Shown: one piece after another, positions 24,486-53,451 of the stretch
Layout: each line of letters starts with the position of its first letter
Position numbering within the stretch: the first letter of the stretch is position 1
From: Lautropia sp.
Lineage (GTDB): Bacteria > Pseudomonadota > Gammaproteobacteria > Burkholderiales > Burkholderiaceae_E
DNA: 64,000 bases
Assembly: GCA_030532895.1 (NCBI GenBank)
Contig: JAUNKF010000003.1
Coordinates: 1 to 64,000 of the forward strand
Reading direction: 5' to 3'
The notes under the pieces: model-generated
Told to the model about the DNA's origin: nothing
The model's database searches: none
The model's input: only the letters and a program-made list of their open reading frames with translations
Translations under genes and position numbers: made by a program

Positions 24486-24617
24486 TCAATGGGCGGGTTG
24501 GACGGAAGCCTGCGTATCGGTGTCGGGCAGGGCTTCGGGCAGGTACAGCGGGCCTTTCTGGCCGCAACCGGCCAGCAGGCTGGTGGCCAGCAGCGCGATT
24601 AGAATGCAGTGATGCAT
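24486..24617 (-). CDS. lptM: Small LPS-assembly lipoprotein LptM (YifL-like)
   Basis: A 43-residue lipoprotein missed by length-limited gene calling. The signal sequence ends in LLAGC (lipid-bearing Cys18) followed at once by GQKGPLYLP, the conserved mark of the LptM/YifL family, which assists the LptDE outer-membrane LPS translocon. Its start lies 41 bases from the divergent cyaY start, and it sits immediately upstream of lysA, the usual neighbourhood (cyaY-lptM-lysA or dapF). Confidence 0.9.
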   Translation of the reverse strand: MHHCILIALLATSLLAGCGQKGPLYLPEALPDTDTQASVQPAH

Positions 24618-24657
24618 GAAACCAGTCTCGGATCAATCTAAGGTACAGAAATCTAGC

Positions 24658-25002
24658 ATGAGCGATAGCAGCTTTTCACAGCAGATGGCCGGGGTGCTCG
24701 ACAGCCTCGAGCTTGGTATCGAAGGGGCCGCAGAGGCCGCCGATGTGGATATCGAAGTCTCACGCAGTGGCAACGTCATCGAGGTGGAGTTCGAGGACGG
24801 TGCGCAGATGGTGATCAACACGCATGAAGCGGCTGGTGAGGTCTGGGTGGCCTCCCGCCGGGCTGGGTATCACTTCCGGCTGGCCGAGGATGGGCGCTGG
24901 ATCGACACCCGCAGCGGGGTCGAGCTGCTGGCTTTGATGTCGGCCGAAGTGAGCGCCCAGGCCGGGCGGGCGCTGGACTTGTCTGGCGTCAAATTGTCCT
25001 AG
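24658..25002 (+). CDS. cyaY: Frataxin-like iron protein CyaY
   Basis: Iron-binding regulator of iron-sulfur cluster assembly, 114 residues. The acidic first helix, the sheet VIEVEFEDGAQMVINTH and VWVASRRAGYHFRL, and the W-D-R-S-G-EL end are typical. Start MSDSSFSQQM (24658) is preferred; an ATG at 24616 would overlap the divergent lptM start codon. The stop codon overlaps a copy of the GCGTGTCA repeat. Confidence 0.94.
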   Translation: MSDSSFSQQMAGVLDSLELGIEGAAEAADVDIEVSRSGNVIEVEFEDGAQMVINTHEAAGEVWVASRRAGYHFRLAEDGRWIDTRSGVELLALMSAEVSAQAGRALDLSGVKLS

Positions 25003-25016
25003 CGCGTGTCAGGCAC
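25002..25016 (+). repeat. Intergenic repeat copy a (GCGTGTCAxGCAC)
   Basis: GCGCGTGTCAGGCAC starts on the last base of the cyaY stop codon, between convergent cyaY and mrcA. One mismatch from the core seen at five other places in this window. Confidence 0.5.
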
Positions 25017-25080
25017 GTGTGCGTCCCCGCGAAAGCCCCGCTGGGCGCACAGCACGGCGTTGCCAACCCGCTCCCATGTT

Positions 25081-33632: not shown

Positions 33633-34715
33633 ATGCAAACCTTGCGCGTAGAGCTGGGCGAACGCAGCTATGACATTCAGGTGGGCTTCGGCCTGCTGGA
33701 CGAGAACCCGGCGCTGACGGCTTTGGCCGCCGGTCGTTCGGTGGCCATCGTGAGCGACACGAATGTGGATCCTCTCTATGGCGCGCAGGTCGAGGCGTTG
33801 CTGAAACCGGTTGCACATCAGGTGCTGCGCGTCGTCGTGCCGGCGGGCGAAGCCACCAAGTGCTGGCAGCAGCTCGACCACATCCATGATGCGATGCTGG
33901 CCGCCCGCTTCGACCGCAAGAGCCTGCTCGTGGCGCTGGGCGGCGGGGTCATCGGCGATCTGGTCGGTTTTGCGGCCGCCACCTACCAGCGCGGCATCGA
34001 TTTCGTCCAGATACCCACGAGCCTCCTTGCGCAGGTCGATTCCTCCGTGGGGGGGAAGACGGCCATCAATCATGCCAGGGGCAAGAACATGGTGGGCGCC
34101 TTCCACCAGCCACGCCTCGTGATCGCCGACGGCGCCACACTCACCACCCTGCCCAGGCCGGAGCTGGTGGCCGGCATGGCCGAGGTCATCAAGCACGGCG
34201 CCATTGCCGATGCGGCCTACCTTGAGCGGGTGGCGCGCGACATGCCCGCGTTGCTCGCGCTCGACCCTGAGCCGATGACCGCCGCCATTCTCGATTCGAT
34301 CCGGATCAAGGCGGCAGTCGTGGCCGCCGACGAGCGCGAATCGGGCGTGCGGGCGCATCTGAACTTTGGCCACACTTTCGGCCACGCCATCGAGGTGGGG
34401 GCCGGTTACGGTCAGTGGCTGCACGGCGAGGCCGTGGGCGCCGGCATGGTGATGGCGGCCGACCTCTCGGTGCGGCTCGGCAAGCTCCCCGCCGATGACG
34501 CCGCCCGGCTCGTCGACGTGATCCGCGCAGCCGGCCTGCCCGTCACGGCCCCTGCCTGGCCGGTGGATGACTATCTGAGCCACATGGCCATCGACAAGAA
34601 GGCCGAACGCGGCACCCCCGTCTTCGTCGTGCTCGATGGCCTCGGCCGAGCCATGACGGCCCGCGCCGACGAGGCGTTGGTGCGCGAGGTGATTGCGGCG
34701 CATCTGGCTGGTTGA
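33633..34715 (+). CDS. aroB: 3-dehydroquinate synthase
   Basis: NAD-dependent cyclisation of DAHP to 3-dehydroquinate, second shikimate step. 360 residues from ATG 33633. LLVALGGGVIGDLVGFAAATYQRGIDF (NAD region), SVGGKTAIN, and the zinc-binding HGAI/NFGHTFGHAIE histidines are all visible. The frame is open upstream through aroK but that part is not AroB. Confidence 0.97.
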   Translation: MQTLRVELGERSYDIQVGFGLLDENPALTALAAGRSVAIVSDTNVDPLYGAQVEALLKPVAHQVLRVVVPAGEATKCWQQLDHIHDAMLAARFDRKSLLVALGGGVIGDLVGFAAATYQRGIDFVQIPTSLLAQVDSSVGGKTAINHARGKNMVGAFHQPRLVIADGATLTTLPRPELVAGMAEVIKHGAIADAAYLERVARDMPALLALDPEPMTAAILDSIRIKAAVVAADERESGVRAHLNFGHTFGHAIEVGAGYGQWLHGEAVGAGMVMAADLSVRLGKLPADDAARLVDVIRAAGLPVTAPAWPVDDYLSHMAIDKKAERGTPVFVVLDGLGRAMTARADEALVREVIAAHLAG

Positions 34716-34719
34716 CCCT

Positions 34720-34801
34720 AAAACCGCGCGCTGACGGCGTTGCCACGCTTGTGAAGGCATCGGCCTTAGCGGCGCATGGTGCCTTGTCAGCCCGCGGTTT
34801 T
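34720..34801 (+). terminator. Long-armed hairpin after aroB, probable terminator
   Basis: AAAACCGCG-C-GCTGAC (34720-34735) pairs with GTCAGC-C-CGCGGTTTT (34786-34801) with one C-C mismatch; the 50-base loop has further GC-rich pairing. It begins four bases after the aroB stop and ends in TTTT. Confidence 0.55.
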
Positions 34802-35009
34802 GGGGCCAGCGCGGGGACAAATTATCCGGGAGGAATGGCTGATTGCTCCGTGTGCCGGGCATAGGGGCTTATTTGCCACGATTGGCGGCGCTGATCGGTG
34901 GCAGCCTGACGCCGGTCGGCCCGATGAGTGAGCACCATTGATCTATCCTGGTCAAGGTCTACAGTGACGATAGGGAAGTGTGCACTTTGTCACGCCGGGT
35001 GGATCAGTC

Positions 35010-36443
35010 ATGAAGGAATGGATAGGCGCCAGTGCCGAAGCACTGGCCGCGGCATACACCAATGGCCGCTTGTCGCCGGTAGAGCTGGTGGGGGCCGTGT
35101 TCGAGCATATCGAGGCCACTGACAGCCGGGTGGGGGCGATGCGCACGTTGTATCAGCAGGCTGCACTGGAAACCGCGCAGGCGTCCGAAAAACGCTGGCA
35201 GCGGCGCTCACCCCTGTCGCCGCTGGATGGGGTGCCCGTCACCCTGCGTGAAGATTTCCCGCTGGGCGGCAGCCACGACGGCGCCGAGCCGGATTCACCC
35301 GTGGTGGCCCGTTTACATGAAGCTGGCTGCCTCATCATCGGCACCACCGTGATGTCGGCCGATGACACGCTGGCCGCCGGCATCACGGCTGATGGACGCG
35401 TGCTGCGCAATCCGTGGCAGCCCTCGGCCGCGGCCGGTGGCTCTTCAGTCGGGGCGGCTGTGGCTTGCGCGGCCGGGTATGCACCGCTGCATGTGGCTTA
35501 TGATCGTTTCGGTTCGGTGCGGCTGCCCGCTGCCTTCTGCGGGGTGGCCGGCTTCAAGCCGAGCATGGGGCGGGTGCCCATCGCCGCGCCGGCCCCTGGC
35601 CGGGTGGCGGGCATCATCAGCCGCCATGTGCATGACACGGCGGCCCTGATGAACATTCTCTCCAGGCCCGATGGTCGCGACTTCATGGCGCTGCCACCCG
35701 AGGCCACCGAGTACCGGATGCAGGTCGATGGCCTCAGTCCCAAATCACTCAGCATTGCCGTCATCACGGACATGGGTCTGGGGCTGCCGCTCGATCCGCA
35801 GATTCAGAAATACCTGCAAGTGGCGGCGCGTGCTTTGCAGATGGCCGGCGCCACGGTGGACATGATCGATGCTTTCGTCTCGCCCACGCTGTTCGACGAG
35901 GTGCAGCAGTTCTGGGAAGCGATGGCGCACGCCGATGCCATGGTTGGCGGCCCGACGGGGAACTGTGAGGCACCGGTGATGCCCTCAGATCCTCTCGTCC
36001 GACAGGTCTCGTCTCCTCGTTCGGCTGCTGCCAAAGCTGCCCTGGCTTTCGTCGACGCCTGGCGATGTGGCCGCGCCGGACGCTTGAGCGGGCTTGAGGT
36101 GATGCGGGCCTGGCAGAGCATGACGGCCGTTCGGGCGGCGGCGAGCCATGCCATGCGCGACTACGACTTCGTGCTGATGCCGACTGTGCCGGTGCTGCCC
36201 TATGGGGCCGAGGCCCTGTCGCCCAGCGGCAAGCCTGAAGATGGCCTGCCGCATCTGGCCTACACCGCACTCTGGAACATGACCGAGCATCCGGCTGCCA
36301 CCGTCAACTGGACGAATACCGATGAGGGCTTGCCGGTGGGCTTGCAGGTGGTGGGGCAGCGCTTCGATGACCTGGGCGTGTTGCGGCTCGCCCGCACGCT
36401 GGAGATCATGCGGCCAGAACCGGAGCCGTGGCCGGCTGTCTAG
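35010..36443 (+). CDS. Amidase-signature family protein with altered catalytic Lys
   Basis: Belongs to the amidase signature family (GatA, fatty-acid amide and indoleacetamide hydrolases). 477 residues from ATG 35010. The signature GGSS (residues 143-146) and the nucleophile Ser169 in GSVRLPAAFCGVAGFKPS are kept with the usual 24-residue spacing from Ser145. The catalytic Lys, normally in a V-K-D motif, is Arg80 (VPVTLRED), and the glycine-rich DTGGS loop reads DRFGS. It may be inactive or have changed chemistry; substrate unknown. A weak promoter (TTGATC at 34938, TACAGT at 34960) lies upstream. Its stop is followed at once by a repeat copy. Confidence 0.85.
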   Translation: MKEWIGASAEALAAAYTNGRLSPVELVGAVFEHIEATDSRVGAMRTLYQQAALETAQASEKRWQRRSPLSPLDGVPVTLREDFPLGGSHDGAEPDSPVVARLHEAGCLIIGTTVMSADDTLAAGITADGRVLRNPWQPSAAAGGSSVGAAVACAAGYAPLHVAYDRFGSVRLPAAFCGVAGFKPSMGRVPIAAPAPGRVAGIISRHVHDTAALMNILSRPDGRDFMALPPEATEYRMQVDGLSPKSLSIAVITDMGLGLPLDPQIQKYLQVAARALQMAGATVDMIDAFVSPTLFDEVQQFWEAMAHADAMVGGPTGNCEAPVMPSDPLVRQVSSPRSAAAKAALAFVDAWRCGRAGRLSGLEVMRAWQSMTAVRAAASHAMRDYDFVLMPTVPVLPYGAEALSPSGKPEDGLPHLAYTALWNMTEHPAATVNWTNTDEGLPVGLQVVGQRFDDLGVLRLARTLEIMRPEPEPWPAV

Positions 36444-36457
36444 AGCGTGTCATGGAG
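36443..36457 (+). repeat. Intergenic repeat copy b
   Basis: GAGCGTGTCATGGAG starts on the last base of the amidase stop codon (TAG). It keeps the GCGTGTCATG core. The following bases to 36722 carry no gene; they include an ACGGTGG/CCACCGT hairpin (36498-36526) and a weak GTGACA/TATCAT promoter-like pair near 36525-36551 that might serve apt. Confidence 0.45.
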
Positions 36458-38477: not shown

Positions 38478-38489
38478 GCCGGCCCCATC

Positions 38490-38506
38490 GCGCGTGTCAT
38501 GCACCG
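38490..38506 (+). repeat. Intergenic repeat copy c
   Basis: GCGCGTGTCATGCACCG, an inverted near-match (15 of 17) to copy d about 125 bases on. Together they bound a 158-base structured intergenic unit (38490-38647) that also contains partial internal copies (GGGCGTGCATCACGG, ATGCGTGTCAGGG). Confidence 0.6.
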
Positions 38507-38630
38507 CTTTGCCCCTGAAAAAGCCTTGCCGGGCGTGCATCACGGCCTCGCCATGCGTGTCAGGGTATCGAAGCTTGGCGGTGCGTGGCGGCTTGACAGC
38601 CCACGCGCGTGGGGGCAGGGGAGGACGAAT

Positions 38631-38647
38631 CCGTGCGTGACACGCGC
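38631..38647 (-). repeat. Intergenic repeat copy d (inverted relative to c)
   Basis: Minus strand reads GCGCGTGTCACGCACGG and continues ATTCG. This longer version matches copy g at 53345 over about 22 of 25 positions. Ends about 20 bases before the DUF898-M48 gene. Confidence 0.6.
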
Positions 38648-38668
38648 TAAAGTCTGGGAGTCCACAAA

Positions 38669-40965: not shown

Positions 40966-40978
40966 GTGCATGACACGC
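40966..40978 (-). repeat. Intergenic repeat copy e
   Basis: Minus strand reads an exact GCGTGTCATGCAC core, in the 171-base gap between the DUF898-M48 gene and the PLP enzyme gene. Confidence 0.6.
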
Positions 40979-42319: not shown

Positions 42320-42461
42320 GGCAACGGGCGCATGTCCGGGTCGTCCGCGCGCCTGGCGGGGCGCCTTGGCGGGCGCATGGGCGCATGACATGCGCCGGCG
42401 CGGGAGGCCGGCATGCCTCGTACGAGCACTGCCATTCGGCCGTGGGCCTGCGTTCTTGTTG

Positions 42462-53085: not shown

Positions 53086-53451
53086 GTCTGTCTCCTACAG
53101 CATGGAACCCGTGGCCGGGCGACGCTGCTCAATGTAGGCGCTTATGCAGATGGATGCGTATTGACTGCGTAACAGTGGTAAACACTTGCATGAATCGTGA
53201 ATTTTTCGGGTTTTTACGCAAGCTCTGGTGTGTTGAGCACGTCAGAGAGTTGGCGGCTTTTACGAAAAGTGCGGCATGTCTGCAACGATCGTGAACGCAT
53301 GCTTTGAGCCAATGCGCATCATGCCGGGATCCGTTTTGCTTAGAGTGTGTCATGCACGGATTCGCTTTGCGTCATGTGATGAATGACGCTGTTTGTGCGC
53401 GTGTGATGCGGTGCGGCCGGATAGTGCGAGTGCGCAGTGGCGGCTCCCGCT
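53086..53451. other. Gap upstream of lipoprotein A
   Basis: 366 bases with no supported gene. AT-rich around 53190-53220, where the minus-strand promoter of lipoprotein A may lie, though no clean -35/-10 pair is visible. It also holds repeat copy g and a GCGTCAT/ATGACGC hairpin (53369-53389). Confidence 0.4.
53345..53357 (+). repeat. Intergenic repeat copy g
   Basis: GTGTGTCATGCAC followed by GGATTCG. With the preceding TTAGA it matches copy d (38631-38647, minus) over about 22 of 25 positions, well beyond the core. Confidence 0.6.

Follow-up and report, generated by a model that had tools for sequence, protein, structure and literature searches.

A scattered intergenic repeat of Lautropia stems from the worn ends of a non-coding miniature transposon family, probably moved in trans by an IS5-family transposase

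The window analyzed here is the whole stretch of 64,000 nucleotides from a Lautropia sp. contig (JAUNKF010000003.1). On its minus strand, positions 38490..38647 hold a two-ended worn copy of 158 bp that is internally deleted relative to a 267-289-bp element. The copy contains an inverted-repeat end, most of a first hairpin arm (arm 1), the 3′ strand of a second arm (arm 2, assigned by eye), and another inverted-repeat end. A profile of the full-length element matched it at 38645-38542 (E 4.2e-8) and at 38516-38645 (E 3.9e-4). One flank reads TA in the sequence (38648..38649) and the opposite flank TC (38488-38489). The first-pass annotation had described the sites at 38490 and 38631 as an inverted pair bounding a structured unit. 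The pairing was confirmed, since both sites belong to one element as its opposite ends; the RNA fold of the unit (-71 kcal/mol), however, was only weakly unusual compared to shuffled sequences (z -2.0). It represents an old copy of the element that has undergone internal deletion, and because its z value is no more extreme than this, a strong fold is a property of the intact copies.

The window contains further partial copies. An internally deleted copy at 25002..25073 on the plus strand consists of an inverted-repeat end and half of arm 2, with the spacer of the arm inverted; its right end was placed by eye at CCCGCTC, which is followed by CC and not by TA. It was detected by a profile of the 61-bp unit (25001-25054, E 3.5e-11) and by the full-length profile (25070-25004, E 8e-6; 25030-25069, E 7e-5). 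The TA at its left flank (25000..25001, plus strand) forms, together with the first G of the element, the TAG stop (25000-25002) of the open reading frame (ORF) 24616-25002. Similarly, the shortened end TAGAGCGTGTCATG at 36441..36454 (plus strand), an exact 14-mer, starts on the TAG stop (36441-36443) of ORF 34980-36443; shuffled words of like composition average 0.025 occurrences per window at up to one mismatch. Both stop codon overlaps had been reported in the earlier annotation. The top-scoring copy of the window, absent from that annotation's list, is an arm-1 fragment on the minus strand at 34709..34824 (full-length profile, E 2e-27) that has lost the outer inverted repeat; it was recovered again by a DNA search with an intact copy (90% identity over 34710-34822).

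All seven core sites listed earlier exist, with the coordinates of four (25002, 36443, 38490, and 38631) lying about 2 bases low for the core, but their membership in the family is graded. Sites 25002, 38490 (E 3e-10), and 38631 (E 3.4e-4) clearly belong to it, and the exact 14-mer at 36443 is read as a truncated end. An exact 13-base core at 40966..40978 (minus strand) was absent from the profile matches and is accompanied by no further family sequence; it is probably a worn element end. The single worn end TAGAGTGTGTCATGCACGGATTCG at 53341..53364 (plus strand) is marginal (profile E 0.07), with one mismatch to the 14-base end; the longer stretch from TTAG to GGATTCG said to be common to 38631 and 53345 is present. 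The site at 42381 was rejected as a family member, as its two mismatches and missing context place it at chance level (26.6 two-mismatch matches per 864 kb for shuffled cores). A core with one mismatch at 35628 falls within an ORF. The sites at 35628 and 42381 are probably chance matches.

Copy number, on which the first-pass annotation had made its repeat stand or fall, was far above chance. In the genome of the window (3.64 Mb, 74 contigs), the 13-base core GCGTGTCATGCAC had 234 matches at up to one mismatch compared to 5 for a reversed control word, and 63 copies were exact. The window alone was uninformative, with 34 matches at up to three mismatches found and 37.8 expected, which is chance level. 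Profile and locus counts were obtained from an 864-kb sample (the window and 40 stretches). Here, the core occurred 13, 38, and 98 times at zero, one, and two mismatches, compared to means of 0.05, 1.5, and 26.6 for shuffled cores. The iterated profile of the 61-bp unit yielded 65 matches at E <0.01 in this sample and none on one random sequence of equal size; by scaling, this would correspond to about 270 matches genome-wide. The earlier statement that copies always lie outside genes was largely upheld. With gene calls from a simple custom caller, 49 of 63 merged loci in the sample were intergenic and 10 overlapped a gene at its end or in part, so that 59 touched intergenic DNA, whereas four were mostly genic; random 50-mers (n = 20,000) were mostly genic in 86% of cases and placed otherwise in 14%. 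The scattered 13-base core marks the worn ends of small transposons without coding content, a family that is real and abundant.

The core lies within the terminal inverted repeat of the 267-289-bp element. When intact, this element displays near-perfect 30-bp terminal inverted repeats, two long internal hairpin arms, and a G+C content of 62-64%; in the genome of the window and in the two nearest relatives analyzed, the 30-bp end reads GAGCGTGTTATGmACTTATTCGTCCCCGCG. The element carries no transposase gene, for which its length leaves no room, although chance ORFs cross the intact copy. We scanned one genome per species (84,980 species, among which the window's own genome may be absent) for the exact end pattern and obtained 64 stretches, all from Lautropia (the S17M_Sa_8 and S28M_Sa_6 metagenome-assembled genomes [MAGs] and L. 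dentalis KCOM 2505); viral contigs gave 0 exact matches to the pattern. The 64 loci contained 15 end pairs, 13 of them full length (267-289 bp) and from two genomes, S17M and S28M. One end pair 3,761 bp apart (L081) was considered as an autonomous element and rejected, as it spans apparently ordinary genes and shows CA, not TA, on one side. The exact core was present in 26 of 150 genomes searched (the window genome and relatives), and beyond the window genome, more than two exact cores were found in only two, S17M_Sa_8 (G006; 36 cores) and S28M_Sa_6 (G003; 15 cores). Searching nine Lautropia genomes at the DNA level with the intact copy plus flanking sequence, we detected the element in at least five of them (the window genome [G000], L. 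dentalis KCOM 2505 [G001], G003, G004, and G006), and G002, G007, and G008 showed flank matches only, among the matches listed.

Copies in the window genome are mostly partial, comprising a 60-bp form, a half-arm-2 form, arm-1 fragments, and many single worn ends. Of the 10 listed copies of the short form (59 to 67 bp), 4 have a TA at each flank. The joint of the 60-bp form lies at GTGCA, a motif found in both arm 2 and the end repeat, which suggests that this form arose by deletion between the two GTGCA repeats. One intact copy of 288 bp with TA on both sides remains (G000 C2:59498-59785, flanked CTA...TAG), which suggests that activity in this genome was not remote.

Target sites are YTAR-like, with TA on each side of the element. 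TA was found on both flanks of 10 of the 13 full-length S17M and S28M copies (the remaining three read TG/TA, GA/TG, and TA/CT) and of 11 of 14 full-length copies in three Lautropia genomes outside L. dentalis. A comparison of filled and empty sites was possible for the window-genome copy at C2:59498, as G006 contig C21 carries the orthologous site without the element. The empty site has 45 bases between flanks that are 73% and 89% identical, compared to about 52 bases (both TAs included) plus the 288-bp element in the filled site; its junction bases are too diverged for a single TA to be read off. Several further candidate empty sites were too diverged to be used. Since no base-exact empty site was among those found, TA as a target duplication, and not merely a flank, is something that we infer rather than observe. 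In one further case (L089), the insertion lies at a gene end and the right half of the element has decayed. This S17M_Sa_8 element (position 4790 of L089) occupies the 3′ terminus of a reading frame whose window-genome ortholog has no element, and the frame ends, judged by eye, on a TGA a few codons inside the element.

L. dentalis departs from this pattern. None of its six full-length copies shows TA on both sides, two keep a one-sided TA, and four (L191, L193, L194, and L195) lie inside one larger composite repeat. Because of these features, the family may have spread in L. dentalis by hitchhiking, or its target may have shifted there. In the composite repeat, other palindromes flank the element on both sides (...GGAAAGTGTCTG[element]CTGGCGCTGAAGGTTTGTTG..., with small variants).

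The TA flanks also account for the overlap with stop codons. TA is retained at 34 of the 87 element ends in the window genome and TAG at 30; for 11 of the 30, this TAG is the stop of a predicted gene, and another end coincides with a TAA stop. Element ends fall on stop codons because TA and the first base of the element, G, together read TAG. The base 5′ of TAG varied among the 30 ends (14 C, 8 T, 5 A, and 3 G), and there is therefore no fixed GTAG tag. The available YTAR sites comprised 397 non-coding ones and 56 formed by stop codons, and with stop sites making up about 12% (56/453), no special preference for stop codons is shown or strongly needed. Insertion into the TA of a TAA or TAG would leave a stop in place because of the first G of the element, and this end of the element would from then on be maintained by the gene.

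An insertion sequence (IS) with matching ends was found in S17M_Sa_8. This IS of about 859 bp has the ends GAGCGTGTGATGACTTT and GAGCGTGTTATGAACTTTTCCCC and TA on both sides; its frames contain pieces of DUF4096 and DDE_Tnp_1 interrupted by stops and frameshifts, which identifies it as a broken IS. The element shares 16 of 17 outer bases with it, and the other end of the IS is 88% identical over 17 columns, whereas the element interior showed no other similarity to the IS at E <0.5. Relatives of the IS were also detected in 70 plasmid records; those inspected, at four places, had the same ends or similar ones. The ends of a Xanthomonas hortorum plasmid IS (NZ_LR828260.1), CTAGAGCGTGTTATGAACTTTG, are identical to each other at 22 of 22 positions, and its transposase belongs to the IS5 family according to the NCBIfam model transpos_IS5_3 (196 bits; cutoff, 110). 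Plasmid ISs of Burkholderia and Paraburkholderia have similar ends, less regular than those of X. hortorum. IS427 is presumably the subgroup name for such IS5 elements with TA targets.

No matches to DDE_3, DUF4096, DDE_Tnp_1, or IS5-type proteins were obtained in the window genome at E 0.001, and an intact IS5-type transposase with such ends (GAGCGTGTTATG, GAGCGTGTTATGAACTT) was found in none of the nine Lautropia genomes, which are mostly draft assemblies. IS5-type fragments also occur in G008. The IS5 matches L161 and L164 in that genome were rejected as a partner because they lack the element ends. At L164 1462-2245 lies a different IS5-type element, which is split into two ORFs, lacks GAGCGTG ends, and gave matches at two places in G008. 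In L. dentalis, 12 DDE_Tnp_1 loci had no element end at up to 5 mismatches in 19 bases. The sequences of the ends and the flanking TAs make IS5-type mobilization in trans the most likely route; a live partner was not among the ISs found.

Taken together, the repeat very probably represents the worn remains of a miniature inverted-repeat transposable element (MITE), a non-autonomous transposon moved in trans by an IS5-family DDE transposase. The intact element with its 30-bp inverted repeats would insert at YTAR-like sites with TA on each side, and the mover would be a transposase of the DUF4096 plus DDE_Tnp_1 type, whose own IS has nearly the same 17 bp at its ends. Insertion at stop codons would be tolerated, as TA and the first G restore TAG. 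During replication, template switching would keep the arms paired and could invert an arm spacer, and deletion between GTGCA repeats would produce the short 60-bp form. The first-pass annotation had offered a small MITE-type family as one of two readings, and this one was borne out by the terminal inverted repeats, the mostly TA flanks outside L. dentalis, the orthologous site without the element, the high copy number, the intergenic location, and the ends shared with a transposase-bearing IS. A point against the IS5 assignment is that the end common to element and IS is only 17 bp long.

The other reading, a REP/BIME family moved by a RAYT (a Y1 tyrosine transposase), has been largely refuted and is now very improbable. 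The repeat does resemble such a family in being short, palindromic, intergenic, often arranged in inverted pairs, and in having TAG at its foot, and GTAG REPs often supply TAG stops to flanking ORFs, according to the available text of PMC3733652. The RAYT search proposed at the time, however, detected no Y1 transposase (PF01797) in the window genome at E 0.001, with the same search positive in 5 of 14 genomes as a control. Moreover, the pairs are the two ends of one element, those ends match a DDE-type IS, and most intact elements outside L. dentalis have TA plus G at both ends and not a one-sided GTAG/CGTC tag. A MITE of the IS630/Tc1-mariner type, like RUP or the Correia elements, would equally explain the TA flanks and the YTAR-like target, and a MITE review names TA termini and the pairing of RUP with IS630-Spn1 (PMC2229807, in the text available). 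We nevertheless consider this reading improbable: the matching ends belong to IS5-family ISs, and DDE_3, the IS630-type domain, was found in one of nine Lautropia genomes (G005), not in the window genome, at a locus with no matching element end at up to 4 mismatches. A DNA uptake word or protein-binding site could also appear as a short conserved core scattered between genes, but here the core lies inside a 267-289-bp element whose interior is conserved and which, in genomes other than L. dentalis, is mostly flanked by TA. Uptake words of Neisseria number in the thousands, and 234 copies at up to one mismatch is low for such a word. The full-length copies already speak against this explanation, which is highly improbable.

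Selection on the fold itself, as a structured RNA or DNA (a terminator, an RNase III site, or a cruciform) with mobility being secondary, is compatible with the MITE reading, and several observations speak in its favor. RNA-parameter folds of 13 full-length copies ranged from -181 to -210 kcal/mol and that of the intact window-genome copy was -212 kcal/mol; folded as DNA, the latter reached z -18 against 200 shuffles. In the consensus fold, the end stem has 29 pairs, and a tiny hairpin separates two long arms. Element ends often adjoin stop codons. In an alignment of 13 of the 14 copies then available (L126, with an inverted arm-2 spacer, left out), the pairing fraction was 98.7% of cells. Changes on both sides affected 7 pairs, against a shuffle mean of 5.2 (equaled or exceeded in 16 of 500 shuffles), and 28 cells, against a shuffle mean of 9.1 (reached in 0 of 500). 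A second alignment of 14 of 20 full-length copies, six of them from L. dentalis (L085, L107, L108, the first L120, L126, and L131 left out), gave 98.5% pairing cells, with 22 of 106 pairs (shuffle mean, 15.5) and 95 cells (shuffle mean, 33.5) changed on both sides between lineages and at most 4 pairs in slid versions. One of five measures, further pair types, was not above shuffles in either alignment (198 and 486 of 500). These pair counts are biased in favor of the structure, as it was predicted from the same sequences and the copies are also related by descent.

Against selection stand the mostly partial copies of the window genome, the absence of any Rfam family at gathering score within the window, and the inverted spacers. 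L126 7488-7755 and the window copy 25002-25073 carry the arm-2 spacer in the opposite orientation to that of the standard element; classified by short motifs in two sets, 7 ends were inverted and 19 standard, and 24 more were shortened or unclassified. An inverted arm spacer in some copies suggests template switching. One further study bears the title 'Template switching in DNA replication can create and maintain RNA hairpins' (PMC8794818). In a yeast study, as far as its available text goes (PMC8604942), homogenization of arms and inversion of spacers are outcomes of template switching that arise without selection. From this analysis, we favor template switching over selection for the fold, which is an unlikely primary cause. 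A wider proposal, in which the full-length branched fold kept by paired changes, the inverted spacers, and the TAG-rebuilding insertion together form a natural multi-copy record of replication template switching, is tentative, with the odds somewhat against it. Copies of the family are numerous and include both paired arm changes and spacer inversions, which would make template switching measurable in natural sequences and separable from selection on structure.

The MITE reading with an IS5-family mover places the element beside several known systems. RUP, Correia/NEMIS, and ERIC MITEs, as covered in the available text of the review (PMC2229807), are likewise short, with terminal inverted repeats, TA termini, and stable stem-loops, and a partner transposase acting in trans has been proposed for them. 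The Lautropia element is longer (267-289 bp compared to under 200 bp) and has 62-64% G+C, whereas the MITEs of that text are A+T-rich; in contrast to RUP, Correia, and ERIC, its ends are IS5-type and not IS630-type, and two arms sit atop an end-to-end stem. With the CIR repeats of Caulobacter and Brucella, it shares two long hairpin arms joined by a linker, but CIRs, as described in the same text (PMC2229807), have neither terminal inverted repeats nor an end-to-end stem, both of which are present here. IS5-family ISs of the transpos_IS5_3 type, such as that of X. hortorum, have the outer 16 of 17 bp and TA flanks at C-TA-G in common with the element; they carry a transposase gene, unlike the MITE with its interior of no detectable similarity. 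The GTAG REPs of RAYT systems are also small and intergenic, with termini that often supply TAG stops, but in the available text (PMC3733652) they are palindromes of 20 to 40 bp and not a two-ended 267-289-bp element, and in Lautropia we found no RAYT in the window genome and no fixed GTAG.

In the open-access literature, we found no paper joining Lautropia with miniature inverted-repeat elements. Lautropia combined with insertion sequences retrieved cystic fibrosis Burkholderiales genome work only, and MITE, template switching, inverted repeat, and bacteria together retrieved a Drosophila transposon study only; subscription papers and preprints lay outside the scope of these searches. This is a new MITE family with IS5-type ends, exact ends confined to Lautropia in our scans, and an uncommon two-armed fold. 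Its unusual feature is the ability to pair with itself along nearly its entire length, in a branched structure that paired changes have maintained while the sequence diverged. It explains puzzling intergenic repeats of Lautropia, replaces the REP/RAYT reading with an IS5-type MITE, and offers a simple reason for transposon ends coinciding with TAG stops.

The element seems to break the assembly of the S17M_Sa_8 MAG. In this genome, 13 of 60 exact end matches fall within 160 bases of a contig start (contigs C2, C9, C16, C20, C24, C33, C35, C65, C68, C69, C71, C91, and C92), as expected because a high-copy, near-identical repeat breaks assembly. A second palindromic repeat of about 166 bp, different in sequence and starting GGAGCTTGGGCGG, is also abundant in S17M_Sa_8. 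It directly adjoins the element at TA at five places (L094 right flank 885-1050, L114 2222-2387, L103 2254-2419, L131 7083-7249, and L112 6582-6720).
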